Shown: piece after piece, positions 12,643 to 25,867 of the stretch
Position numbering within the stretch: the stretch's first letter is position 1
How the letters are laid out: each line of letters opens with the position of its first letter
Assembly: GCA_020346225.1 (NCBI GenBank)
Contig: CP070777.1
Span: 2,186,406-2,222,737, forward strand
Source of the DNA: Candidatus Zixiibacteriota bacterium
GTDB taxonomy: Bacteria > Zixibacteria > MSB-5A5 > GN15 > FEB-12
Reading direction: 5' to 3'
Length of the DNA stretch: 36,332 nucleotides
Made by a program: the position numbers and the translations under genes
Notes under the pieces: model-generated
The model's input: only the letters and a program-made list of their open reading frames with translations
Databases searched by the model: none
Told to the model about the DNA's origin: nothing

Positions 12643-12733
12643 GGGCACCGTAGAGCCTAAGCTCAAAAACGCAAAAAAGCTACAGGATCGATGGTGATTG
12701 TTTCTGCGCGAGGGCCGTAAAAAGGAGCTGATC

Positions 12734-14002
12734 ATGAAATCCAGCGGCCAAGAGATTTGTGCCGGTACCATCCGGACCGACTGCTATCCCGCGCTGGCCA
12801 CGACAGCGAAGTCGTTGGGACAGTCGGGATTTCGCCCGGAGGCCCGGCTCGGTCGGGTGCTGAGCTGCGCCTCAGGCGATATCCTGAGCGGACGATACCG
12901 GATTCAGTTGTACCGATTTCTTACTCAGAACGTTCCCGTCGTGAATGCCTGCATTTCCACGTGGGTGCGGCTTAGCGCCGCTCCCGGGAACTTTCGGATC
13001 GACAATGAAACGGGTCCCGACGCCCGACGGGCCCGGGAGAAACTGGCGGGCCTATGTGAGCGCGTCTATCGACCCACCGCCGGCAACGCGGGCAGCATGG
13101 TCACTTTTCTGTCGGACCTGTTCGGGGGTCTCTACCGCGACGGGGTTGCGGGCGGCTTTATAACCGTTAAGCAGAACGGCACCGGCGTCGACAGATTCAT
13201 ACCCGTAGATGTTGTCGACCTTCTGTGCCGCCGGCGAGGGGCTCAGCGGCATCTGATGCTGGAACTGGACAGCCGTACGATTGACCTTGACCGTAGCGAC
13301 TTCTATCACATTCCCCTCAACGCCGATATCAATCATCCTCTGGGCAGGTCGGTTCTCCAGCCGGTACCGTTCGTAGCTTATATCGAGCAGCAGCTTGTCG
13401 ATGATATGCGTCGAACGAGTCATAACTCCGGCTTTCACCGGCTGCACGTCAAGGTGACTCCGCCGGAGCGGATGGCCGGGGAAGCCGACAACGCCTATAC
13501 TGACCGCATCAACAGCTATTTTGACTCCACGGTGACCATGATCAAATCGTGCGAAGTCGATGACAACCCCGTAACCTGGGACAACGTGGCTATTGAACAC
13601 ATAGGTCCCAGCAATGTCCGAACGGTGACCAACAGCTGGTTTCTGAATCATCGCAGTATGATCGAGGAGGTTTGTGCCGGGACGGGCCTGGCGCCGTTCC
13701 TGCTGGGATATTCATACGGAGCCACCGCGACCTGGTCGTCCTTCAAATTCGATCTGGTGATGCGACAGGTGCGGTCGATTCAGACGGAGGTTGCCGCTTT
13801 TCTTCAGTGGCTGGGGAACATCGAGTTGGCGCTGGCCGGGCTCAACCAGCGCTGCCGCTTTGAATTCGACAACACTTTCGCCTACCAGGCGGCCGAGAAT
13901 GCCCGGGTGCAGTCGAGTCGGGTCGACAGCTTGCTGAAACTGTACAACGCCGGGCTGATTGACCGCAATGACGCTCGGCGAAGGGCCGGAGACCTGATAT
14001 AA
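12734..14002 (+). CDS. Phage portal protein
   Basis: A 422-residue portal-type protein, the ring at the capsid vertex through which DNA is pumped. Evidence is the pattern VPVVNACISTWVRLSAAPGNFRI near the N-terminus, FLSDLFGGLYRDGVAGGFITVKQNG, a FYHIPLNADINHPLGRSVLQPV segment, and MIEEVCAGTGLAPFLLGYSYGATATWSSFKFDLVMRQ near the C-terminus, all typical of HK97/SPP1-like portals. The helical C-terminus ends with YNAGLIDRNDARRRAG. The ATG at 12734 has AAAAAGGAG six bases upstream and is preferred over a TTG at 12698. Its stop TAA overlaps the presumed non-canonical start of the terminase reading frame. Confidence 0.85.
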   Translation: MKSSGQEICAGTIRTDCYPALATTAKSLGQSGFRPEARLGRVLSCASGDILSGRYRIQLYRFLTQNVPVVNACISTWVRLSAAPGNFRIDNETGPDARRAREKLAGLCERVYRPTAGNAGSMVTFLSDLFGGLYRDGVAGGFITVKQNGTGVDRFIPVDVVDLLCRRRGAQRHLMLELDSRTIDLDRSDFYHIPLNADINHPLGRSVLQPVPFVAYIEQQLVDDMRRTSHNSGFHRLHVKVTPPERMAGEADNAYTDRINSYFDSTVTMIKSCEVDDNPVTWDNVAIEHIGPSNVRTVTNSWFLNHRSMIEEVCAGTGLAPFLLGYSYGATATWSSFKFDLVMRQVRSIQTEVAAFLQWLGNIELALAGLNQRCRFEFDNTFAYQAAENARVQSSRVDSLLKLYNAGLIDRNDARRRAGDLI

Positions 14003-14067
14003 AGTCTGAAGAACTTCCTGTTGACTGGCGGCGGACTCTGGTTGACCCGGTCTACTTCGCCAGTGCC

Positions 14068-15327
14068 GTGCTTGGCCTGGACCTTCACGGCGGGCAGAAG
14101 CGGTGGCTGCGGGAATCGATAAAACGGCAGAACCTGCTGGTTACCGGCAATCGCTGGGGGAAATCGTTCGTTTGCGCGGTGAAGCTGCTCTACCGTGCCT
14201 TCTGGCGCATTCGCAAGCTCAAGTATGACAGTTGCAGTCGTTACCGGGTTGTAACAGCGTCAATTACCCAGGACCAGGCCAACATCGTATTCAACCTGGC
14301 CGTCAGGTTGGTCCGCCAATCGATATACCTGAAACCCTTAATCGTATCGATTATCCGTACGCCCTATCCGAAGATGACCCTGCTGGGAGGTGTCACTATT
14401 GAGGCCCGCTCCACCCAGAACCGGGGGGAGTATCTGCTGGGAAACGACTATGATCTGTTCGTCTTCGATGAGGTAGCCTTCGAAACCGACCCGGAGTACG
14501 TGGTCGAAGAGGTTATCCAGATGCGGCTGGCCGACCGCGAAGGGATGCTGGATCTGGTTTCGACGCCCAACGGCAAGAACTGGTTTTACCTGCGGGCGCG
14601 AGACGTAATCGAGGGGAAACGTGACGGGTACTATCAGACCGGAGACAGCCGCGAAAACACTTTCATTTCGGTCGAGGCTCTGGATGAACGCCTGCGCAAT
14701 TTCACGGAACGCCGCGTCCAACAAAATATCATGGGACAGTTCGTTGACTGCGGCGGCGAAATCCTGCGCGGCGAATACGTGGACCGGGCCCTGGCCGGTT
14801 TCGATGCGTGGGACAGCGGCAAACACGGGAGCATGTTCATCTCCGGCTGGGACCTGGCCCGCAAGAAGACAGCCACGGTGGGTGTAACTGTTGAAGTCGC
14901 CGGTGATAAAGTGCGCGTTGTTGACCTGCAGCGCTTCCGGCGCTTCGACTGGAATGTCGTTATCGAAAAGATCAAGCAACGTCAGTTCAAATACCCCGGA
15001 CAACTGATTGTCGATGCCACCGGCCTGGGCGATGTCATCGTCGAACAGCTGGCATCGCATCACCCGATCTCGGTGATTTTCACTGAAAAGACGAAGGCCG
15101 AACTTCTGACCAACCTGGAACTCTTTCACGCCAGGGGACGGGTTGCCTATGAGCGATGGGAAGTGGCCGACGGCCCCGGACGGGTGTGGTCGCTCGAAGA
15201 CGAACTGCGCCGGGCCAGGTGGGACGACAACAACGATTGCGACGCCCTCATGGCGCTGGCCCTGGCCCTCTGGCCGCTGCACCAGTCGCGGAAGGTTGCC
15301 ATCGAGCCCCGTCTGGGCAGTTTTTAG
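14068..15327 (+). CDS. Phage terminase large subunit (ATPase plus RuvC-like nuclease)
   Basis: Motor protein that packages DNA into the prohead and cuts it. From the GTG at 14068: Walker A TGNRWGKS (26-33), Walker B LFVFDE (130-135), coupling motif STP (165-167). The RuvC-like nuclease domain has Asp262 (GWDLA), Asp316 (IVDATG) and Asp392 (DCDAL). All key residues are present, so the enzyme could be active. The GTG has no ribosome site, and coding-like sequence continues upstream in frame (EELPVDWRRTLVDPVYFASA), so the true N-terminus is probably near 13999. There an ATA codon overlapping the portal stop follows GGAG by seven bases. No small-terminase gene was recognised nearby. Confidence 0.92.
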   Translation: MLGLDLHGGQKRWLRESIKRQNLLVTGNRWGKSFVCAVKLLYRAFWRIRKLKYDSCSRYRVVTASITQDQANIVFNLAVRLVRQSIYLKPLIVSIIRTPYPKMTLLGGVTIEARSTQNRGEYLLGNDYDLFVFDEVAFETDPEYVVEEVIQMRLADREGMLDLVSTPNGKNWFYLRARDVIEGKRDGYYQTGDSRENTFISVEALDERLRNFTERRVQQNIMGQFVDCGGEILRGEYVDRALAGFDAWDSGKHGSMFISGWDLARKKTATVGVTVEVAGDKVRVVDLQRFRRFDWNVVIEKIKQRQFKYPGQLIVDATGLGDVIVEQLASHHPISVIFTEKTKAELLTNLELFHARGRVAYERWEVADGPGRVWSLEDELRRARWDDNNDCDALMALALALWPLHQSRKVAIEPRLGSF

Positions 15328-15360
15328 GCGCGTTGCTCCACCGGGAAAAAAGCTTGTATC

Positions 15361-15387
15361 CCCGGGTCCGGGAGCTTAGATTTTTTT
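15361..15387 (+). terminator. Weak terminator candidate after the terminase gene
   Basis: A GC-rich short hairpin (CCCG GGTC CGGG) lies 34 bases after the terminase stop and is followed by a run of seven T at 15381-15387, with AAGCT/AGCTT arms outside it. The stem is short and the T tract begins several bases late, so activity is doubtful. If real, it separates the inhibitor gene from the packaging genes. Confidence 0.3.
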
Positions 15388-15447
15388 CAGAGGAATCGCA
15401 CTGAGCGAAACCCGCCTTAAGAACTCTACTCGTGGAGGGATGGCCCG

Positions 15448-15849
15448 GTGAATAGCAGGAATATATCTACTCTATTGCTTCTGGTTTTTGCGGTGGCCTG
15501 CATTGCCTGTAGTAGTGAGAACGCTGATCCCCCGATTTACACCGGATTGACCGATACAGTCCGCGTTACGGCTGGGGACCAGTTCAAGATCGTTCTGGAA
15601 TCAAACATCACTACCGGTTTCAGCTGGCAGTTTGCCACTACCCTGGATTCAACGGCGCTCAGGCTCGTGGAGCACGACTATGTTCCGCTTCCCAACCCCG
15701 ATAAGCTGCTCGGGCGAGGCGGTCATGAGCACTGGCTCTTTGAAGCGCTGGATGAAGGCTCGACCGCAATCGCGCTGCAGTACCTGCGGCCGTGGGATTC
15801 GACCAGCGTGGCCAAAGAAGCCAATTTCACGGTTGAAATCAGTAAGTAG
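15448..15849 (+). CDS. Chagasin-family (I42) cysteine-protease inhibitor lipoprotein
   Basis: A 133-residue protein with a lipoprotein-type signal (MNSRNISTLLLLVFAVACIAC, lipid Cys18 or Cys21) followed by a chagasin/ICP immunoglobulin-like domain. Chagasins block papain-like cysteine proteases with three loops; all three are recognisable here: NITTGF (53-58), GRGGHE (89-94) and RPWD (114-117). VTAGDQFKIVLE at the start of the domain also fits. GTG at 15448 is preceded by GGAGGGA. It stands alone between the terminase and prohead-protease genes, with a hairpin after it, as a cargo (moron-like) gene would. Target proteases are unknown; a host surface or self-protection role is inferred. Confidence 0.85.
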   Translation: MNSRNISTLLLLVFAVACIACSSENADPPIYTGLTDTVRVTAGDQFKIVLESNITTGFSWQFATTLDSTALRLVEHDYVPLPNPDKLLGRGGHEHWLFEALDEGSTAIALQYLRPWDSTSVAKEANFTVEISK

Positions 15850-15879
15850 CAGCCAGGTCGTTTCGACCAAAATATCAGA

Positions 15880-15910
15880 CGCCCCTCGAGGGGAGGAATC
15901 TCGAGGGGCG
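15880..15910. repeat. Perfect 11-bp inverted repeat (hairpin) after the inhibitor gene
   Basis: CGCCCCTCGAG and CTCGAGGGGCG arms are separated by nine bases (GGGAGGAAT). The stem is very GC-rich and lies 31 bases past the inhibitor stop. It has no clear T tract on the plus strand; read on the minus strand it is followed by TCTGATATTTTGG. It may stop transcription from either the inhibitor gene or the small antisense ORF. Confidence 0.5.
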
Positions 15911-16020
15911 GATTCTCAAGGAAGACGATAAGGATTGATAGTGGGTGTCGCATTGATCTCAAACACCGCTGGACACCCGAGGGTATTTCAAGTTCCGCCT
16001 GAGCGGAGACGTAAGTCACC

Positions 16021-16134
16021 TCAAAAGCCGGCGCCGTAAACGTCCGAGAATGTGATAGTCATCGTAAGAATGAAGACGACAATAGCGATAACCCACTTCA
16101 GGCCGCGCGTCAGTTTCTTCCGATAAATAGTCAT
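16021..16134 (-). CDS. Possible small single-span membrane protein (37 aa), antisense in the head island
   Basis: An ATG at 16134 opens a 37-codon frame on the minus strand ending in TGA. The peptide starts with a basic stretch (MTIYRKKLTRGLK) followed by a hydrophobic span WVIAIVVFILTMTITF and a short polar tail SDVYGAGF, a typical N-in membrane anchor or signal-like profile. AGGATGG lies about ten bases upstream, an acceptable ribosome site. It is the only gene-like frame in an otherwise empty gap and is opposite in direction to the island. No family is recognised; it could be a chance frame. Confidence 0.4.
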   Translation of the reverse strand: MTIYRKKLTRGLKWVIAIVVFILTMTITFSDVYGAGF

Positions 16135-16377
16135 AATCAACCATCCTATTCTTGTGGCAACTCCACCACCTCTGAGTGCAAAGGTTGTGCCGCCCCTCGG
16201 TGAGGCTCCCCGGTCTGCCCTAACATGGCCGCTCTCAGAGCCTTAGGTCCGATGTGCAACTATTGAACGCGACCGACCGGGCCTACAAAAGTCAGCAGCT
16301 TTTTGCGCAAAATACGTGGGACTCTGCTGGTGAAAATTCCCCGGTGCCGGGGTGCAAAAGCCAATTGCGGAGGTGAC

Positions 16378-17907
16378 ATGGACACCACTCTGGGCAGAGT
16401 CAAGGCCGAACTGGCGGAACCGGCGGCGGACCGAATCGAGTCGCTGGTGACGCTCATTAATAAGAACATCAACCCGCCGACCGCGGTCAGCCGGGCGGAT
16501 GTGCATATCCGTGCCATGTATGTGGTTTCGGACGAGGTCAACAGTTTCGGCGGACGTTTTCCGCCGGAGGAACTGGCCAGCCTGGTCGAGCTTCTGGTCG
16601 ATTCACCGGTGCTGGTTGGTCATCGCAAAGACAAGTTACCGGTGGCTCGAACCTTTCACGCCGAGATCGTCAAACGCAACGGGCGCGACTGGGTCAAGTC
16701 GTACTTCTACTGGCTTCGCTCGGCCGACCATGCCGAGGATTTGAAGGAGAACATCGACGGCGGTATTTACAAGGAATGTTCGATAGGCTTTACTTACCAG
16801 CTTCCGGAATGCTCCGTATGCGGTGGCGATATCCGCACCTGCCGTCACCAGCCCTTCGAAACCTATTCGGCCCACGGAAGGAGACAGCGCTGCCATTTCA
16901 ACTACCGGCGTATAGAACGGGTCCTCGAGACGTCGCTGGTCTACCGCGGCGCGATACCCGACACGATGGTATCGAAAGATCTCAAGGTAACGGACCAGGC
17001 GGCGAACCCGACGGAATGGCGTCCTGATAAGATCGCGGACCCAATGCAGCTTCCGCCGGGGCAGAGGTACCTGATCGTTCCCCATTATGATTCTCTGGAG
17101 GTCCTCGTGGACTGTCGCGAGGGCAGGATGGCATTATTCGACATGCGCGGCCACGCTGTCGGCGAGAGGCTCACCGCTGACCTGGATGCGTCGGCCCTGC
17201 CCGAAATGAACCGTGCGTTCGGCGTGCTGGTGGCGTATCGCGGAAAGGAGCGGTGCCCGGTCGCCTCGCTCGTGAAATTCCTGAGCGGAAAAGCCGGGCC
17301 GGTAACACGCATCGAACTCAAACTCACTGCGCAGAACAATTCGGATGGCGACGCCGTGGATTTCAGCGAAAAGAAACTCAGGGTCAGGGCAATGCGTTAC
17401 GCCCTCACTGACGTGGCCGGTCTGGAGGAGGCGGCCGCCAGACTGATGACCAAATGCGGGGTACGCGTGTGGGCCGAAGATGGTCCGCCGCCCGCGCACG
17501 CCGGTTATGTGTACTGTCCCGAAAACGGATCTGACACCTTTGCCGGCCGATGGGGGATATATCAGTCGACGCATAAATCTTCAGCTGTTATGTCGATTTG
17601 CCATGACGGCAACGTGATTTGCTACGACATAAGTCAGTTCAGCTTACTGCGCCTGACCAAAGGCGGGCGGTTTCTGGCCCGGCGGCTGGAGGGCGGCAGG
17701 GCGCCGTCCGGGTTGCTCCGCCACGTTGCCAGCGGCCGGGTGACGTCTCTTATCGCGAAAGAAGAGGGCCTTCTGCTGCAAACAACCGGGGGCCTGAGCG
17801 GTAGTTATGTTATCCAGCCGATCCGAATCAACCGGTGTGACAAGTTCCTCATCTATCGCGTCGGTGATGAGTTCGTGCCTATTGAGTCAGGAGAGTCGGA
17901 GCAGTGA
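16378..17907 (+). CDS. HK97-type prohead protease with long C-terminal extension
   Basis: A 509-residue protein. Residues about 40-215 match the prohead serine protease (S78/U35) pattern: DSPVLVGHRKD with the likely catalytic His82, GIYKECSIGF with Ser135, and LETSLVYRGAIPDT. Such proteases trim the scaffold and capsid shell during assembly. A CxxC-x6-CxH set (Cys145, Cys148, Cys155, His157) directly after the Ser motif could bind zinc. The remaining roughly 300 residues (LIVPHYDSLEVLVDCREGRM... to VGDEFVPIESGESEQ) have mixed beta/alpha character and no recognised fold; ordinary relatives are about 200 residues. ATG 16378 follows GGAGGTGAC. The stop overlaps the next GTG start. Confidence 0.8.
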   Translation: MDTTLGRVKAELAEPAADRIESLVTLINKNINPPTAVSRADVHIRAMYVVSDEVNSFGGRFPPEELASLVELLVDSPVLVGHRKDKLPVARTFHAEIVKRNGRDWVKSYFYWLRSADHAEDLKENIDGGIYKECSIGFTYQLPECSVCGGDIRTCRHQPFETYSAHGRRQRCHFNYRRIERVLETSLVYRGAIPDTMVSKDLKVTDQAANPTEWRPDKIADPMQLPPGQRYLIVPHYDSLEVLVDCREGRMALFDMRGHAVGERLTADLDASALPEMNRAFGVLVAYRGKERCPVASLVKFLSGKAGPVTRIELKLTAQNNSDGDAVDFSEKKLRVRAMRYALTDVAGLEEAAARLMTKCGVRVWAEDGPPPAHAGYVYCPENGSDTFAGRWGIYQSTHKSSAVMSICHDGNVICYDISQFSLLRLTKGGRFLARRLEGGRAPSGLLRHVASGRVTSLIAKEEGLLLQTTGGLSGSYVIQPIRINRCDKFLIYRVGDEFVPIESGESEQ

Positions 17908-18227
17908 ACGTTACGGCCAGGAACAATGTGTTGGACGGCGCACTGAAGTCGAGTGTATCGTTTTTGAAAGTTGTGGGCATCATCGTCAGCCTGGCGGCCG
18001 CCTATTTCCTGACGATTCAGTCGCTGAAGGTGGAGCTGGCGGCCAAGGCCGAGGGGGCCGTTGTAGAGACTCTGGACAAAAGACTTACAAACTTTGAGGT
18101 GATGTTGCGCGAGGGCGTGGTCAGTAGAGAGCAGTTTTATCAGTTCTCGAAAGATGTCGAGGCGCGATTGACCCGCATTGAATTCTACCTCAAAGAACAA
18201 ATGGGAGAAAAAAGTGGAAAACGCTGA
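17904..18227 (+). CDS. Small protein with one membrane segment and a coiled coil
   Basis: 107 residues starting at a GTG that overlaps the protease stop (GTGA), with GGAG just upstream. It has one hydrophobic segment (FLKVVGIIVSLAAAYFLTI, residues about 20-38) followed by a heptad-rich helix (VVETLDKRLTNFEVMLREGV, ARLTRIEFYLKEQM). The architecture resembles small phage holin- or spanin-associated or membrane-tethering proteins, but there is no family signature. It is followed, with overlapping reading frames, by another coiled-coil gene. Confidence 0.7.
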   Translation: MNVTARNNVLDGALKSSVSFLKVVGIIVSLAAAYFLTIQSLKVELAAKAEGAVVETLDKRLTNFEVMLREGVVSREQFYQFSKDVEARLTRIEFYLKEQMGEKSGKR

Positions 18228-18615
18228 GCAGATTGCTGCTTACATCGCTGAGGTCGTCCGTCAGATGGAGGCCGAGAGCTTGACCAGTCTCGATTTTGAC
18301 CGGCTCAAGGCAACGCTGGTCGATTTCAAGGCGATGATGGCCAGGCATCAGGAGCAAGAGGGCGAGCTGAACACGCTCCGCGAAGACTATATTCGACGCA
18401 TTTCCGGAATGGAGAAGGCCATGGCCGTGGCCGGACGCGGTCGCTCGGGCGTCAAAGATGCCCTCGAACGTATCGAGGGTCTGGCGACTCTTACGGCCGC
18501 CGCTCTCGTCGAATGCTACCGCAAGGCTCAAGCCCGGTTTCAAGATACTTTCCCGGCCAGTTTTGGTCTGCCGGCCGGCCGCTCCCGGAGCCACAGCAGG
18601 AGTCGGCTGAACTGA
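18214..18615 (+). CDS. Coiled-coil protein, possible scaffold or small structural protein
   Basis: 133 residues; GTG 18214 was chosen because GGGAG lies seven bases upstream and the gene then overlaps its neighbour by only 14 bases. Almost wholly helical and charged (AYIAEVVRQMEAESLTSLDF, LVDFKAMMARHQEQEGELNT), ending in a basic Ser/Arg tail SRSHSRSRLN. Its position just before the decoration and capsid genes is where phages often keep a scaffold, so this is a guess at role. No family recognised. Confidence 0.7.
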   Translation: MENAEQIAAYIAEVVRQMEAESLTSLDFDRLKATLVDFKAMMARHQEQEGELNTLREDYIRRISGMEKAMAVAGRGRSGVKDALERIEGLATLTAAALVECYRKAQARFQDTFPASFGLPAGRSRSHSRSRLN

Positions 18616-18702
18616 GGAAATTGAAAGCTGTGGGATTTTCATCCCGGCCCGCGGGAGCTACTCCCGGTCAATCCCGGTGAATACATAAACAAGGGGAGAA
18701 CT

Positions 18703-19122
18703 ATGACTATTCGACCACAGAATCTGGAAACCATATCGCCGGTCCTGGCAAGCTTCCAGGTAAGTCAGACGGCCGGTGTCGACGACCTCAAGGACGCTGA
18801 TATCGGAGCGCCGGTGAAGTTGAGCGACAACGGCGAGGTCGGGCCCTTGGGCGCCGACGAACAGTTGCTTGGTAAGCTCATCAGCCTGACGCTGACAGAT
18901 GGCGATGACGGGCAGCGGGTCGCCACGGTGCAGATTGGCGGTATCTGCCGCTTGCCGGTCTCGGCGCCGGTGCCGCTGGTGGGTAATCGTATCGTGGGCG
19001 GCGGCAGCGGCACTGTCAAGCAGGCTCCGGCGGTCGCCTCGGACCCGGACGGCGGCAATATAGCGCGCGGTACGGTGCTGGACGTAAACGGAACCATCGA
19101 CTGCGTTATCCTTCTCAATTAG
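18703..19122 (+). CDS. Capsid decoration/cement-like protein
   Basis: 139 residues, directly upstream of the capsid gene. The composition and pattern DADIGAPVKLSDNGEVGPLG...LLGKLISLTLTDGDDGQRVATVQIGGICRLPVSAPVPLVGNRIVGGGSGTV fit small beta-rich head decoration proteins (DUF2190-like), which clamp the outside of mature capsids. ATG 18703 follows GGGGAG by six bases. It ends 12 bases before the capsid ATG. Assignment is by pattern and position. Confidence 0.7.
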   Translation: MTIRPQNLETISPVLASFQVSQTAGVDDLKDADIGAPVKLSDNGEVGPLGADEQLLGKLISLTLTDGDDGQRVATVQIGGICRLPVSAPVPLVGNRIVGGGSGTVKQAPAVASDPDGGNIARGTVLDVNGTIDCVILLN

Positions 19123-19134
19123 AAAGGAGCCACA

Positions 19135-20235
19135 ATGGATTTCAGTCAATTTTTGCATACCGCCGCCTGCGCGCATCTTCAGCGTCAGAGCGACAAGGAC
19201 GATGTGACCGGCCCCGTCGACCTCAGCCGGGCGGGAACCATCGAGGTCGACAGGGACCTGTACCTGGAGGCGGACGCCAGAGGTATGTCTCTATCCGAGC
19301 TGCTCGAATGCGACGAGTACGACCCGTCACTTCCGGGCAGTTCTCTTGACGCTTTCGGACGGCAACTGGTGCTGGCCGGCATTCGCCTGGGCGGCAAAGC
19401 ACCCACAACCGTCGAGCAATTCTACCAGCAGGCGCCGGCGCTGCTGCCGGAGTTTATGCTGCGCGAAATCAAAAGAGGTCAGGCCATGCGGCCGGAACTG
19501 GGCAAACTTGTCGCCAGTTCGACAACCATCGCCAGCAACAACTACACGCCTTTTCACATCGACACGGACAGTAACACGCGCTTCTCGCTTCGTCCTATCG
19601 GCGAAGGCTCCGAGATACCCAAGTTGCTGGTAACGGAACAGAACCATTCCGTCAATGTGGCTGACTACGGCCTGGCCCTCAAGACCAGCTACAAGGCCCT
19701 TCGTTACCGAACCACATCGCAATTCCGCGTTCTTCTGTGGTACATCGGTTTTCGGATTCAAACGGACAAGATCGCCATGCTGATGGACACCATTATCAGC
19801 GGTGACGGCAACGATAACCCGGCCGCCGTGGTCAATTCGGCCGTCAGCGGAACGCTCACCTACGACGACCTGGTGTCGCTCTGGGCCAGTTTTTCGCCCT
19901 TCGAGATGAACACCATCGTCTGTCATATCGACAAGCTGAAGACCATCTTGACGCTGGAGGAGTTCAAGGACCCCATGGCGGGATACCGCTTCCAGAGTTC
20001 GGGGCAGCTCTTCAGTCCGCTTGGCGCCGGCATGATCCGGTGTGACGAGGTCTCGGCCGATTATGTCGTCGGCCTGGACAATCGTTTCGCCGTCGAAGAG
20101 GTCGTGACGCAGCCGTTGATGATCGAGTACGACAAGGTTATCGACCAGCGTTTCGAAGAAGCCGTCATCTCCGAGTCGGTGACGTTTGCCAAGATTATCA
20201 AGGAAGCGTCGGTTATTCTCAATACGAACTTCTAA
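19135..20235 (+). CDS. Major capsid protein (HK97 fold)
   Basis: 366 residues, with AAAGGAG five bases before the ATG, the strongest ribosome site of the island, as expected for the most abundant protein. The first 115 residues are acidic and helical, suitable for a delta-domain that the upstream protease could remove. The rest contains capsid-like stretches: FSLRPIGEGSEIPKLLVTEQ, VNVADYGLALKTSYKALRYR, TYDDLVSLWASFSPFEMNTI and VVGLDNRFAVEEVVTQPLMI. It sits in the usual place after protease and decoration genes. I am fairly sure of the role although no single motif is diagnostic. Confidence 0.82.
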   Translation: MDFSQFLHTAACAHLQRQSDKDDVTGPVDLSRAGTIEVDRDLYLEADARGMSLSELLECDEYDPSLPGSSLDAFGRQLVLAGIRLGGKAPTTVEQFYQQAPALLPEFMLREIKRGQAMRPELGKLVASSTTIASNNYTPFHIDTDSNTRFSLRPIGEGSEIPKLLVTEQNHSVNVADYGLALKTSYKALRYRTTSQFRVLLWYIGFRIQTDKIAMLMDTIISGDGNDNPAAVVNSAVSGTLTYDDLVSLWASFSPFEMNTIVCHIDKLKTILTLEEFKDPMAGYRFQSSGQLFSPLGAGMIRCDEVSADYVVGLDNRFAVEEVVTQPLMIEYDKVIDQRFEEAVISESVTFAKIIKEASVILNTNF

Positions 20236-20241
20236 ACAAAG

Positions 20242-20263
20242 CGGGCCCGGTTTTCCGGGCCCG
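20242..20263 (+). terminator. GC hairpin between capsid and propeller genes (attenuator candidate)
   Basis: A perfect nine-base-pair stem CGGGCCCGG / CCGGGCCCG with a TTTT loop, followed by GTTTCTG. It lies six bases after the capsid stop and 14 bases before the next ATG. The T tail is poor, so it may only partly stop transcription, favouring capsid over downstream proteins, or it may protect the capsid mRNA 3' end. Confidence 0.6.
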
Positions 20264-20277
20264 GTTTCTGAAACCCT

Positions 20278-21690
20278 ATGCTGAAGAAAATCACAGAGAT
20301 ATCTCCCGCCAGCGGCCTCGGTAACCCGCAGTCGAAGAAGCTGCTTCGGGTCGAATCGGGGGAACACGCCGGCCGACTTCTGGCTGTGATCCCGGTAAGC
20401 GCCGATGAAATATGTTACGCCTATGCCGACCGGCCTTACGTCTCCTGGAGCGCACTCGAAACCCTGGCTGACGACGCCAGTTGCCTGGGGTGTGATGCCG
20501 TCATGGACCCGGTCGGTAACGTGCACGTGGTCTACGTCGAGCAGGCCACCAGTCATCTGGTCACGCGGAAACTTTCCTATGCAGGGGGTACGTGGTCGCC
20601 CGGTGACAAAGTCTACATTTATAATGGCGGTATCGGACTGGCGCCCTCGCTGTCAATCGATTCCGGCGGCACCCTCTGGGTCAGTTGGGGCCGCCTGTCG
20701 GCCGGATACTACGATATCCAGGTTAAAGGCTCGGCTGACGCCGGGGCTACCTGGGGCAGTGGACCGGATGACATCGGCGATACCCTCAAGACCGGGATGG
20801 CGGCGGCCTGTCCGAAGCTGATAGCGTCCGGAGGACGGGTTTACGTTGTCTACTCGGGAACGGGGAACGATCTGTTCGTTCGCCATAAGCCGCTTTCCGG
20901 CGGAACCTGGGAAGACGAGTTCACGGTCGCCTCGGCGGCCGGGATCGATGAGCAGTTCGATGCCGGCGTATCGTCTGACGGCCTCCTGGGGATTGTGCTG
21001 GACTGCGGAGAACTGCGCTACCGGCAATATGACGGGGTCAACTGGAGTGCTATAACGACCCTGGATGAGAGCGAATGCAGGCACCCGCAAATATATTTCA
21101 GCGGCGGCGTTCCTGTGGTCTGCTATTTGTCGGATCCGACGCCATCGCAGACTGTCATGAAGTATGTGCATCGGGCCGGCGGCAGTTTCTCGTCCCCTGA
21201 GGCCGTGGAAGTGCGAGCCGGTTCGTTTGACCGCGTCATGCTCTTTGACAGTCAGTCGGGCAGCTACGCCGACGTGACGGAAGCGGCCGCCGGGAGCGAA
21301 ACGGGTGACATCGTGCATCCGTCCACAGGCACTATGATAAAGAACCTCGGCGATCGCATCTATCTCGGTATGGCGGAGCCGTTCCGGCTGGCGACATGCC
21401 TCCTTTCTACACCCGGTGCCGGTGGCGCCGTCGCCTATGCTTACTGGGACGGGGCCAACTGGAAGTCCTTCACGCCTGCAGGGGGGACGTATAACTACGA
21501 CCTGAGCGAAAAGCAACTGCTCTTGTGGAACGACTTTCTTTCCATCCCGGCTGACTGGCAGCAGACGATGGTGGACGGCGCCACCATGTACTGGCTCCGG
21601 ATCGACGTCACCGCCGCCTTCGCCGTCGGGCCGGTAGGCTCTCAACTTAATGCCGTATCGGCGCTCACCGCCATGGTGGTAAGGAGGTAG
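20278..21690 (+). CDS. Asp-box beta-propeller protein, likely tail-fibre or receptor-binding
   Basis: 470 residues without a signal peptide. It has repeated beta-blade-like segments with W-containing turns (YAGGTWSPGDKV, LSGGTWEDEFTV, YDGVNWSAITTL) and a perfect Asp-box SADAGATW (152-159), typical of sialidase/BNR propellers. A separate C-terminal domain (YAYWDGANWKSFTPAGG... to YWLRIDVTAAFAVGPVGS) resembles the YWDGxxW modules of viral surface proteins. Sialidase catalytic residues were not identified, so binding rather than hydrolysis is more likely. The start lacks a ribosome site and lies just after a hairpin, so it may be expressed weakly. Confidence 0.65.
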   Translation: MLKKITEISPASGLGNPQSKKLLRVESGEHAGRLLAVIPVSADEICYAYADRPYVSWSALETLADDASCLGCDAVMDPVGNVHVVYVEQATSHLVTRKLSYAGGTWSPGDKVYIYNGGIGLAPSLSIDSGGTLWVSWGRLSAGYYDIQVKGSADAGATWGSGPDDIGDTLKTGMAAACPKLIASGGRVYVVYSGTGNDLFVRHKPLSGGTWEDEFTVASAAGIDEQFDAGVSSDGLLGIVLDCGELRYRQYDGVNWSAITTLDESECRHPQIYFSGGVPVVCYLSDPTPSQTVMKYVHRAGGSFSSPEAVEVRAGSFDRVMLFDSQSGSYADVTEAAAGSETGDIVHPSTGTMIKNLGDRIYLGMAEPFRLATCLLSTPGAGGAVAYAYWDGANWKSFTPAGGTYNYDLSEKQLLLWNDFLSIPADWQQTMVDGATMYWLRIDVTAAFAVGPVGSQLNAVSALTAMVVRR

Positions 21691-21691
21691 T

Positions 21692-22504
21692 ATGTCTTAC
21701 ACAACTTCGGAGATGGTCAGGCATTATCTCGACAACCCCTTCCCGGTCCAAAGTCGTGTTCATGACCAGTCAATGGTGCTCAGTGGCGACGACTATATCA
21801 CCTTCTTCGGCGGCGCCGTCGAGCCGACGTCGGTAACGGTCAAGGCACCGGCCGGCGGGGGACTCGCGCGGGTCAACGTGTATCTGTCCGGCGCCATCAC
21901 GGCTTTCTCCAGCGTTCCGGCGGTAAACGGCACGGTAGTGGTCGCTTCCGACAGCTCGCTGGGGACTGTCTTCGTCGCGGGTGTGGATTACGCCGTTGAT
22001 TATGCCGCCGCTACCATCAGTATCAAGACAGGCGGCGCCATATCGGTCGGTCAGACGGTGATTGTATGGTTCTTGCCTTATACGTTGTACCAGTCCGGAA
22101 GCGATTACCTGATCGACCATTCCCGGGGAGCGATTAAACGCGTGGCGACCGGGGATCTCGTCGACGGACAGACGGTGTACCTCGACTACAACCCCACCTT
22201 CGTCAGCCACCGGGAGGAAATCGTGGCCCAGGCGGTGGCCGAGGCCAACGGCGCCGTCGAGCTGGCGGTGGATCCCGATCGACAGTTCGGCGCCGACCGC
22301 CGCCTCCAGATGGCGGCCACCTACCGGGCCCTGGAAATAATCTGCCGGGCTTCGGCGGCCCGCGAACTATCCGGTCTGCGCGGCGACAGCAAAGCGGCCC
22401 AGGTCTGGATGACGCTCGGCGAGCATTATCACCGGCGAAGTGATGAGCTGCTCAGCGGTTTTCGACCGCCCCTGGCCGGACCTGCTTCACCGGCGTTGAG
22501 TTGA
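21692..22504 (+). CDS. Head-tail connector-like structural protein
   Basis: 270 residues with a strong AAGGAGGT ribosome site overlapping the previous stop. The first 170 residues are beta-rich with Gly/Val/Thr repeats and DYLIDHSRGAIKRV, a phrase seen in virion proteins. The last 100 residues are helical (EIVAQAVAEANGAVELAVDP, LQMAATYRALEIICRASAAR), like head-completion adaptors. Place after the capsid and propeller genes supports a virion role, but the exact function is not clear. Confidence 0.6.
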   Translation: MSYTTSEMVRHYLDNPFPVQSRVHDQSMVLSGDDYITFFGGAVEPTSVTVKAPAGGGLARVNVYLSGAITAFSSVPAVNGTVVVASDSSLGTVFVAGVDYAVDYAAATISIKTGGAISVGQTVIVWFLPYTLYQSGSDYLIDHSRGAIKRVATGDLVDGQTVYLDYNPTFVSHREEIVAQAVAEANGAVELAVDPDRQFGADRRLQMAATYRALEIICRASAARELSGLRGDSKAAQVWMTLGEHYHRRSDELLSGFRPPLAGPASPALS

Positions 22505-22513
22505 GGAGGAATT

Positions 22514-22888
22514 ATGTTGTCTGCCCTGTCACATATAAAGGCGCACCGAGTGTGGTTTGTGCCGAAGTTCAACGTCTGGGGTACGCCCGGATCGGAAGAT
22601 ATCGATTACCTTGTCGTCGAGACGGTCGATTCCGTCAACGGTGTACTCTTCGGCCGGGCTGCTCTCGGAGACGACTCGCAGCCGGTGAAATTCGAGGACC
22701 TGACGGACTTTCGCGGTAACACCCTGCCATCGACGATCCTTAACCCGCGCGTGCTCGTCCGACAGAAAAGCGACTACACGGCACACATCGTCGGCGACGA
22801 GTTCCCCACCGGATTCCACATCGCGCGCCAGGCTGACGCCACGGGGCCCGTAACGGTGGATCTTCTGATAGTCGAGATGGGTGACTGA
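22514..22888 (+). CDS. Unknown small island protein
   Basis: 124 residues, behind GGAGGA. Mixed beta character (HRVWFVPKFNVWGTPGSEDI, DYLVVETVDSVNGVLFGRAA, VTVDLLIVEMG) without signal peptide or membrane segment. Its place between the connector-like gene and a small coiled-coil gene suggests a minor virion or assembly protein such as a head-closure or tail-terminator component; no motif proves it. Confidence 0.65.
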   Translation: MLSALSHIKAHRVWFVPKFNVWGTPGSEDIDYLVVETVDSVNGVLFGRAALGDDSQPVKFEDLTDFRGNTLPSTILNPRVLVRQKSDYTAHIVGDEFPTGFHIARQADATGPVTVDLLIVEMGD

Positions 22889-22889
22889 T

Positions 22890-23156
22890 ATGGCCGGTAG
22901 GAAAGCCGCGACGCAAAGCGTTGACGAAATAACGATGCTGGATAACCTGATCCGGGAGTACTACCAAGAGTTGTCCGGCAGAGACAAGAAGGACTTCAAA
23001 CCGGGAGATTTCTTGAAAATGATCGAACTGAAACGCAAACTGGCTCCGGTCGATGCCGAGCAGAAGAAATTCCTTCAAATGCTCAGCAGGATTCGGCGGG
23101 AAACGCTGGGCAAGAATCAGCGGGCCGCCAGGAAACAGGACAGCAAAGATGCTTAG
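22890..23156 (+). CDS. Unknown small helical island protein
   Basis: 88 residues from ATG 22890, directly after the preceding stop. Charged and helical (MLDNLIREYYQELSGRDKKD, FLKMIELKRKLAPVDAEQKK), rich in Lys and ending in a basic tail. This size and composition would suit a small terminase subunit or assembly chaperone, but there is no helix-turn-helix that I can identify. It overlaps the start of the next gene by eight bases. Confidence 0.6.
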   Translation: MAGRKAATQSVDEITMLDNLIREYYQELSGRDKKDFKPGDFLKMIELKRKLAPVDAEQKKFLQMLSRIRRETLGKNQRAARKQDSKDA

Positions 23157-24435
23157 GAGAACGGTGGTGCGGTTTTTCACGGTAGTTTTGATCGTGGCCG
23201 TGACGGCCGCCGTCGCTGTTGCCGCTCCGGCTCAACCGGCCTCGAAAACCTTCAGGCTTGACGGGGAACGTTCCTTGCCCGACGCCGGTTCGCGTGATAT
23301 GACGGCCGTCATAAGCACCGCTTCCGATGCAACCGAATCCGCCTCGTTTGAAATCTCACTCTGGCAGGGAGAGTGTCGGTTCGTCGTTGATCTCCGGCGC
23401 GACCAGGCGCCATCGGAGGGCCCATCTTCGATAACCGGTTTCCAGGTGACGGACGACACCGTGTTGATACCCGGCCGCAAGGTGCAACATCGCTTATTCA
23501 AAACCCCGGGTGGAATGGAATGGGAAATGACTCTTCTGGACCATCCCGGCAGCAATCTCATCGACTTCGACATCCAAACCGACGGGCTCGTCTTTTTCTA
23601 TCAGGACACGCTTTCAACGTTTGCCCGCGATTCCCTTGGGGCGGTACGGCCGGACTCTGTCATCGGCGCCTATGTGGCCTACCATGCCGGCAAAGCACAC
23701 GACCGCCTGGTGATCCACCGAGGTGACACCACCCGACACAGCTACGGTACGGGGCAGGCGTTCGTTATTTATCGTCCTCGCGCCTGGTATGACGGCGATA
23801 CCGTCTGGTGCGACCTGCGGCTGGATATGAGGGATGGAATTCTGTCGGTGGCGCTCGATGCCAATTGGCTCAGAAGCGCTCGCTTTCCGGTGACGATCGA
23901 CCCCACTTTCGGCAATACGGCGATCGGCGCCTCGAGCATGAACTGGAATCAGCTTTACGCCTACTGCCACTATCTAACCGGGACAAACACCTATACCGTA
24001 CCGGCAGGGAAAACTGCTACCGTTACCCGGTATTCGGTTTACGGTTCCGAGACCGGCGCCGGCGACATTGATATTCAGATGGCGGCGTTTGCAATGTCGG
24101 GCGGCTTTCCAGAGGCGAGGGTCGACCAGCCCGTCACGATCACCGTCGCCGGCGGCACGCCGGGCTGGTTTCACAGCGGTTCGGTGAGTCACTCGCTGAG
24201 GGCGCAGGAAGAATACGGCGTGGCGGTCGGGTGCGCCCCGCGTTCAGGCGGTACTGTCTATTATAATGATGTTGCTTACTCAACCGCAACCGACAGGACC
24301 AACTGCACTCTCGGCTCGACAGGCTGGACGCAGGAGACTGAGACGAGCTTTAACTTCTCGATGTATGCCACTTACACGGAGCAGGAGGGGCCGAGCGTAG
24401 CCTCGGCGCGCCGCCGAATGTTGACTGAACGTTGA
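23149..24435 (+). CDS. Exported phage-tail-like protein with Sec signal peptide
   Basis: 428 residues from ATG 23149 (AGGA eight bases upstream), overlapping the preceding stop. It begins with a classic signal peptide MLRRTVVRFFTVVLIVAVTA followed by AAVAVAAPAQP. The body has segments I associate with phage tail or adhesin proteins: LLDHPGSNLIDFDIQTDGLVFFYQDTL, RPDSVIGAYVAYHAGKAHD, YGTGQAFVIYRPRAWYDGDTVW, and RFPVTIDPTFGNTAIGA before a beta-sandwich-like end. A signal peptide on such a protein is unusual, since virion proteins assemble in the cytoplasm. It could be a surface-displayed product; the family link is recall only. Confidence 0.65.
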   Translation: MLRRTVVRFFTVVLIVAVTAAVAVAAPAQPASKTFRLDGERSLPDAGSRDMTAVISTASDATESASFEISLWQGECRFVVDLRRDQAPSEGPSSITGFQVTDDTVLIPGRKVQHRLFKTPGGMEWEMTLLDHPGSNLIDFDIQTDGLVFFYQDTLSTFARDSLGAVRPDSVIGAYVAYHAGKAHDRLVIHRGDTTRHSYGTGQAFVIYRPRAWYDGDTVWCDLRLDMRDGILSVALDANWLRSARFPVTIDPTFGNTAIGASSMNWNQLYAYCHYLTGTNTYTVPAGKTATVTRYSVYGSETGAGDIDIQMAAFAMSGGFPEARVDQPVTITVAGGTPGWFHSGSVSHSLRAQEEYGVAVGCAPRSGGTVYYNDVAYSTATDRTNCTLGSTGWTQETETSFNFSMYATYTEQEGPSVASARRRMLTER

Positions 24436-24460
24436 ACGGCAATTTTCTGAAGGATTTCAG

Positions 24461-25867
24461 ATGGCAGAAAGAGCAATAGAACGGAGTATAAGGGCAACCC
24501 TGACCGCGCTGGCGGCGGTGCTTGTCTGCGGACTCGGCCGGGGCGCCGTTGTCAATAACGTCGGAACATCGCCCGAAGACTCGGTCGTCGTTTCGGTCAT
24601 AAACTGGGACTCGGCCGGCCTGGCGCCGATCGCCGCCGACAGCTTCTGGGTCATGGTGGTCAAATCGGGCACCGACGAGGTTGCTTTTAGAGATTCCGGC
24701 ACGACCGGTATGGTCGGTCTGGATACCGTCACCATCGCCGGGAGTACCGCGTACTACTATCATCGGCTCGCCGGCGAGATTGACGGCACCGGTTCGCCGG
24801 GAATGTACGCCGGGGCGCTGCTGGCCAAAAACAGCGGTCTGGGTCTTTTCAACTGTTCGCATTTCACGTTTCAGGTCGTGGGATGGGAACTGGACGATCT
24901 CGGCGATTCGGCGGCAATGGCGTCGGTGTTGTACGATTCTTTGATAACACAGGCGGAAATCGTCGACAGCCTCTACGCAGTCCTTGACAGTCTGCAAAAG
25001 CACGACGATTGGGTATCGTCATATGATCCGGCCTCTCAAGCGGTGCGTCTGCAGGAAACCGAGTTTGCCGAGTTTGCCGATACCGTGTATGGAAGAGATT
25101 CGCTGCTGTTCGCCGAGGGCTACTGGCATAAGATCGCCGTCCGGTCCGATTCCGGCGCCGCCACTGCCGCCGTTGACTCGGCCTCGATCGCCGCCTGGGT
25201 CTGGAACACGCCCCAGGTCAACCACACTTCTGACGGTACTTTCGGCAAGTACCTCGATAGCGAGATTTCCGGGATCGGCAGCGGCAGCGGTCTTTATTCG
25301 TTTTCTCTGATGACCCTCGACTCGACCGTTCAGCAGGTCATTCCGAAAGCTCGCGTGGTCATCCGCAACCTCGACCAGACAGCGGTGCTGGCAGTGGGTG
25401 GCACCGACGCCGGCGGTGAGGTCAATTTCAATCTGGATGCCGGCAACTACCTGGCCGTCGCGTCCGCCAGCGGTTACCTGTTCAACAGCCGGGATACCAT
25501 CGTCGTTTCCGGGACCGCCACGGACACCGTCTTCGGCGAGCAGTTCGATCCCGGGGCGCCGCCCTCGCCCGACCTCTGTCGCGTCTACGGGCACCTTTAC
25601 GACATCAGCGGCCAGGCCGAACAGGGGGCGACGGTCACAGCCGGATTGCCGTCCGGTGTGGTGCGATATCAGAATGCCGTTATATCGCCGGCTACGGTAT
25701 CGATCACGGTCGATGCTTCGGGATACTTCTATCTTGACCTGATACCATCGGCGTTGCTGCAACCGGAAAACACGGCCTATGAGTTCTGTATCACCAGGGC
25801 CGACGGCACTATCCTAAGACAACGGCTGATCGTGCCGGATGACGTTGACTGGCAGTTGACGTGGTAA
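24461..25867 (+). CDS. Exported tail-like protein with C-terminal regulatory-like beta domain
   Basis: 468 residues, with AAGGA eight bases before ATG 24461. The N-terminus looks like a Sec signal (ATLTALAAVLVCGLGRGAV). The middle contains SIAAWVWNTPQVNHTSDGTFGKYL, resembling short repeats in phage tail proteins. The C-terminal 180 residues form two beta modules of the carboxypeptidase-regulatory type (VVIRNLDQTAVLAVGGTDAG, CRVYGHLYDISGQAEQGATV) ending VPDDVDWQLTW. Last gene of the island: it converges with the dockerin gene, only 13 bases separate the stops, and no terminator is visible. Confidence 0.65.
   Translation: MAERAIERSIRATLTALAAVLVCGLGRGAVVNNVGTSPEDSVVVSVINWDSAGLAPIAADSFWVMVVKSGTDEVAFRDSGTTGMVGLDTVTIAGSTAYYYHRLAGEIDGTGSPGMYAGALLAKNSGLGLFNCSHFTFQVVGWELDDLGDSAAMASVLYDSLITQAEIVDSLYAVLDSLQKHDDWVSSYDPASQAVRLQETEFAEFADTVYGRDSLLFAEGYWHKIAVRSDSGAATAAVDSASIAAWVWNTPQVNHTSDGTFGKYLDSEISGIGSGSGLYSFSLMTLDSTVQQVIPKARVVIRNLDQTAVLAVGGTDAGGEVNFNLDAGNYLAVASASGYLFNSRDTIVVSGTATDTVFGEQFDPGAPPSPDLCRVYGHLYDISGQAEQGATVTAGLPSGVVRYQNAVISPATVSITVDASGYFYLDLIPSALLQPENTAYEFCITRADGTILRQRLIVPDDVDWQLTW

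Follow-up and report, generated by a model that had tools for sequence, protein, structure and literature searches.

Gene transfer agents (GTAs) have been formally recognized in few lineages only and are defined by six features: particle proteins derived from caudoviricetes; a fully endogenized genome, often in several loci; mostly vertical inheritance with host codiversification; packaging of mostly random host DNA; a particle that is too small to hold the complete gene set; and delivery of the DNA to other cells (PMC9662315). In the experimentally supported FpGTA I of Faecalibacterium, a 10.5-kb operon holds terminase, portal, scaffold, and capsid genes but no replication genes; the system is spread across multiple loci, and its ~40-nm capsids, without identifiable tails, contain packaged fragments of 8.4 to 8.9 kb (PMC12946183). 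Here, we describe a ~13-kb cluster of phage head and packaging genes in a 36,332-nucleotide window (positions 2186406 to 2222737 of CP070777.1, the single-contig 3.18-Mb metagenome-assembled genome [MAG] of a member of the Zixibacteria). This cluster is probably a domesticated caudovirus head-neck module that works like a GTA, phylum-wide and short-tailed, packaging host DNA and passing it on. No link between Zixibacteria and GTAs was found in open-licence PubMed Central papers.

A codon-usage gene call gave an uninterrupted run of plus-strand genes from 12698 to 25867, with minus-strand host genes on either side (TPR, dockerin, glycosyltransferase, and hydrogenase subunit genes). This agrees with a first-pass annotation, made from the sequence alone, that placed a compact phage island between host-type genes. 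The portal, terminase, decoration, and capsid genes that it had listed as intact and tightly packed were borne out by PHROGs matches and open frames (Table 1), as was the full catalytic set of the terminase: Walker A (G27NRWGKS33), Walker B (D134E135), and the nuclease aspartates D262, D316, and D392 are at least 93% conserved among 51 Zixibacteria terminases. The protease gene is a more qualified case; the Zixibacteria homologs share a conserved H107, S160, and Cys/His knuckle, which fit a prohead protease, an assignment that stays putative. As the first reading had suggested, integrase, replication, tape-measure, and lysis genes had no match among the window open reading frames (ORFs) scanned with Pfam and PHROGs, no search being aimed at endolysin. 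The PhageMin_Tail tape measure (PF10145; the sole tail family used outside the window) was absent from the complete genome.

The same annotation called the island head-only. The part concerning the tape measure stood, but "no tail" is too strong, because the cluster encodes a head-to-tail adaptor by predicted fold and a 7-bladed beta-propeller. The adaptor model (270 amino acids) matched T4 gp13 (Z = 9.1; root mean square deviation of 3.8; 105 residues aligned), SU10 (8.5), HRP29 (6.4), T7 gp11 (5.9), and the neck of RcGTA (6toa; 5.8). These Z values are middling; adaptors and neck proteins account for several of the top matches, and the gene position agrees. The propeller model (470 amino acids) resembled PLL lectins (Z = 27 over 281 residues), while Foldseek ranked a chain of the LME-1 phage portal-tail complex first and a P22 gp10-like model lower. 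In sequence searches of the PDB, neither the capsid nor the adaptor profile found anything useful; the propeller profile had only weak sialidase-like matches. Since propellers are common, the protein may be a nozzle or a lectin, and the predicted fold by itself is no proof of a nozzle. Taken together, the modeled adaptor and propeller suggest a short-tailed particle, "head plus neck" rather than head only.

This gene set shares features with several known systems. Like FpGTA I, it is a compact head-packaging operon; however, the particles and packaged DNA of FpGTA have been demonstrated, whereas the Zixibacteria cluster is known from genes alone. RcGTA (Rhodogtaviriformidae) is similar in its vertical inheritance, its head and neck genes, and an adaptor of similar fold. 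In contrast, RcGTA has a 49-nm tail (PMC9662315), while no tape measure was found in the present genome, and the Zixibacteria capsid matched another family (phrog_3922), in a comparison that left out the RcGTA capsid itself. By description, BhGTA/VSH-1 and BaGTA are likewise endogenized, vertically kept, phage-derived particles, some of them split across loci; BhGTA is long-tailed, BaGTA is variously reported (PMC9662315), and their hosts differ from Zixibacteria. Short-tailed phages (T7, SU10, HRP29, P22, and LME-1) resemble the cluster in the adaptor fold and in a beta-propeller beside the neck genes but differ in that the cluster is inherited with its host and that no replication or integration genes were found in it.

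The first-pass annotation had named presence in few strains, att repeats, and pseudogenes in close relatives as signs against domestication; none of these was borne out. Among 132 genomes of the phylum, all of one class (78 rated good quality), 124 carried the capsid and/or terminase gene, 2 of the terminase matches in this tally being weak. Capsid genes were found in 111 genomes (73 of the 78 good-quality ones) and terminases in 115 (71 of 78), nearly always in single copy and without stops. An apparent decay of the capsid gene in three single-contig MAGs (G023, G025, and G026) was rejected, since the breaks or absences coincide with 100-N scaffold gaps. Terminase identity fell with taxonomic distance, from 72 to 75% within the genus to about 59 to 72% within the family, 51 to 60% within the order, and 40 to 49% within the class. 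When named genomes were scanned with a 29-row capsid alignment, most of the 80 loci recovered were titled Candidatus Zixiibacteriota, Zixibacteria, or GN15, including RBG-1; the rest were titled "bacterium," Calditrichota, Thermoplasmata, Flavobacteriaceae, Ignavibacterium, or FCB group, and several of these were taken as mislabelled members of the phylum.

Synteny, which had been proposed as a check, was also retained. Across 40 loci, which sample most of the phylum's families, the recurring order was portal, terL, protease, transmembrane coiled-coil gene, scaffold, decoration, capsid, propeller, adaptor, small genes, and fibre-like gene, with the adaptor and the next small gene trading places in some families. 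In 11 loci, from families f1 to f4 of the order, both flanks were shared, with TPR or m10395 to the left of the cluster and dockerin to its right. In some other families, portal and terL lie together at a locus separate from the capsid module, and both loci are kept. Separately, 100-N gaps were seen in the single-contig MAG chromosomes of five loci (L032, L033, L155, L156, and L160), several at apparent cluster splits; the large-scale order of these chromosomes is unsafe because of the gaps.

With GTDB family labels standing in for a host tree, all Zixibacteria capsids formed one clade (support, 98), and each of the six multimember families formed one clade, requiring 5 changes, the minimum. 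The terL, adaptor, and propeller trees also required the minimum, with every testable family as one clade. Pairwise identities were correlated between capsid and terL (Spearman 0.84) and between terL and portal (0.93). Median ratios of nonsynonymous to synonymous substitution rates (dN/dS) in close pairs ranged from 0.04 to 0.25 by gene. For capsid and terL, the genes singled out for this check, they were 0.04 (15 pairs) and 0.10 (one pair), with values of 0.07 for portal (one pair), 0.12 for propeller, 0.16 for adaptor, and 0.19 for protease. Judged by these trees and ratios, the cluster is inherited vertically with its host and is under purifying selection.

Of the six GTA features, the three that sequence can address were all found. 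The proteins are caudoviricete-derived at the gene level (portal, terminase, capsid, and decoration by PHROGs; adaptor by fold); the genes are endogenized, with chromosomal flanks and, in several families, two loci; and inheritance is mostly vertical, as indicated by the trees, the identity gradient, and synteny. We therefore regard a GTA-like function as probable and do not file the cluster as a proven GTA. The suggestion of a gene-transfer-agent-like particle in the first-pass annotation is thus strongly supported: the cluster is phylum-wide, is passed down vertically in single copy, and is under purifying selection. In such a system, particles would be assembled with the scaffold, protease, and decoration protein, and the portal and adaptor would form a neck that the propeller may cap. 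The terminase would pack pieces of the host chromosome into small, short-tailed particles; because no DNA-binding small terminase was recognized, headful packaging would be nonspecific. Release could occur by lysis with a holin, for which many relatives appear to carry a gene at the 3' end, and the particles would then deliver DNA to kin. This holin-like gene (~104 codons) occurs in 14 of the 40 loci, ~7 kb beyond the capsid gene and 3' of the fibre gene where one exists, and in 71 of the 132 genomes; its name comes from the PHROGs match of one member (phrog_6918; E = 1.5e-4), and Pfam gave none. If the GTA-like reading is true, capsid-mediated gene exchange would be a long-standing heritable trait in large parts of the bacterial tree, with a GTA-like cluster kept across nearly a whole uncultured phylum and relatives kept across at least two more.

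Several observations weigh against a GTA-like function. The holin-like gene of relatives was not found in the genome studied here. RBG-1 (G010, L067) has an intact capsid gene, but a terminase search of its genome had no match. The candidate small terminase (88 amino acids) had no TerS match in PHROGs or the PDB and is possible only as a guess. No recipient-binding protein is proven, and viral relatives are poorly sampled, which makes the distance from free phages uncertain. Finally, the particle, its packaged DNA, and transfer are all unobserved, and the lack of observed transfer also favors the main functional rival discussed below.

Where the cluster came from is a separate question. Outside the phylum, 254 genomes were sampled and 10 carried the capsid family; none of the 14 controls did. 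In two further phyla (X and Y), nearly all genomes were positive (34 of 39 at 50 to 88% identity and 13 of 14 at 53 to 75%), mostly with a single copy. The X and Y clusters share with that of Zixibacteria the genes for decoration protein, capsid, adaptor, protease, and portal, although their order differs. A phylum X gene (c6) guessed from its length to be a propeller was rejected as such, being the terminase. In a third small group (L220, L221, and L280; three genomes of three genera), the capsids are nearly identical (94 to 96%), with much less divergence than the other phyla show, which may reflect recent spread. Gut-bacterial "phage" records carry capsids about 31 to 35% identical to the one described here. 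A related capsid is encoded in 32 IMG/VR loci, many of ~10 kb, and in most of these the portal and protease genes are present in the same order. The capsid, portal, and protease of these ~10-kb gut clusters belong to the same families as those of Zixibacteria, and the clusters resemble FpGTA I, a likeness of size and gene order rather than of compared FpGTA sequence. For the human gut record MT835508 (L153; GenBank "Bacteriophage sp."), a free-phage identity, with a tape measure, was considered and rejected; the record is a chromosome fragment that carries an oleate hydratase gene and has rpoA, Rnf complex, and NrdD genes around its head cluster. GenBank "Bacteriophage sp." and IMG/VR entries can be chromosomal GTA-like loci.

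Two origins were weighed. That one widespread phage clade was domesticated repeatedly and separately in Zixibacteria and other phyla, rather than once as an ancient GTA, is a proposition we find evenly balanced. In its favor, the capsid tree places a free phage (L152) among the clades of the phyla, and the gene order is not the same from phylum to phylum; against it, every phylum is a single clade with a clearly long vertical history. The phage side of this tree is thin, with one long-branched phage; the L152 contig has a 1,285-residue ORF downstream that is a possible, unconfirmed tape measure. Repeated domestication concerns origin rather than function and is compatible with a GTA-like role. 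We hold more tentatively, as a somewhat doubtful proposal, that the Zixibacteria cluster is a branch of one very old short-tailed GTA lineage present in several phyla (Zixibacteria, X, Y, and gut bacteria, including the Faecalibacterium GTA) and inherited with its hosts for most of each phylum's history.

The main functional rival is a domesticated phage particle with another use, such as killing, DNA disposal, or a compartment. Secreted or surface-type genes with signal peptides at the 3' end and a propeller closest to sugar-binding lectins would suit such a particle, but the portal is conserved, as is the terminase with its full set of catalytic residues, and a DNA-free particle needs neither; we consider this rival unlikely. 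The first-pass annotation had also offered a trimmed prophage, that is, a defective, decaying remnant cut down to its head genes. Although the absence of integrase, replication, and tape-measure matches is what such a remnant would show, phylum-wide retention, low dN/dS, matching trees, and intact frames already contradict it, and it is very improbable. Nor were the marks of an active prophage (integrase, replication genes, att repeats, and sporadic distribution) found: the longest direct word common to both flanks was 15 nucleotides, lay within flanking genes, and equaled the maximum of 100 shuffles. An integrating capsid-encoding satellite with borrowed tails, comparable to phage-inducible chromosomal islands and also raised at first, would account for a compact head-packaging set without long-tail genes but is hardly credible, given flanks scanned without an integrase, repeats at chance level, fixed phylum-wide rather than sporadic presence, a constant chromosomal neighborhood across related families, and a neck adaptor of its own.

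Table 1. Features of the head-neck cluster (window coordinates)
Feature	Coordinates	Strand	Basis
Portal protein	12734..14002	+	phrog_30703 7e-14, phrog_3753 2e-12; order with terL kept in relatives
Terminase large subunit, ATPase and nuclease	14068..15327	+	phrog_2 2e-28; found in 115/132 genomes
Chagasin-family I42 peptidase-inhibitor lipoprotein, genus-specific passenger	15448..15849	+	PF09394 3e-24
Prohead protease-like N-terminal domain with long C-terminal extension	16378..17907	+	phrog_16951 7e-18
Small membrane-anchored coiled-coil protein	17904..18227	+	Transmembrane segment and coil read from sequence; 33/40 loci, 14 families
Scaffold-like coiled-coil protein	18178..18615	+	Precedes decoration and capsid genes; 88% probability profile match to phylum Y equivalent
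Decoration/virion structural protein	18703..19122	+	phrog_4588 1e-5; 35/40 loci
Major capsid protein (major head protein)	19135..20235	+	phrog_3922 3e-61; 111/132 Zixibacteria genomes
7-bladed beta-propeller: nozzle-like tail protein or lectin-like binding protein	20278..21690	+	AlphaFold2 pLDDT 91.8
Head-to-tail adaptor with immunoglobulin (Ig)-like insertion	21692..22504	+	AlphaFold2 pLDDT 87.2, predicted fold
Conserved small neck/tail candidate	22514..22888	+	31/40 loci, 12 families; weak profile match to phylum X gene c3
Possible small terminase without DNA-binding domain	22890..23156	+	88 amino acids, helical; between portal and terL in family f16
Lineage-variable secreted protein	23149..24435	+	Signal peptide read from sequence; 9/40 loci
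Fibre- or surface-type protein, Ig/CarboxypepD_reg domains, N-terminal signal	24461..25867	+	PF13620 6e-7, subthreshold; 31/40 loci, 13 families

Three further observations concern individual genes. In one genome (G055, 98% complete) without a capsid or terminase match, the holin-like gene is kept (C50:38306-38605) and looks like a remnant after loss. The chagasin-type inhibitor gene is unrelated to the head genes and is inserted only in loci of the window genus (also L031, L033, and L155). At the position of the lineage-variable secreted protein, different lineages (L034, L035, L043, and L061 to L063) hold unrelated-looking secreted proteins, several of which end in a C-terminal Arg-Arg-Arg-Leu/Met tag.

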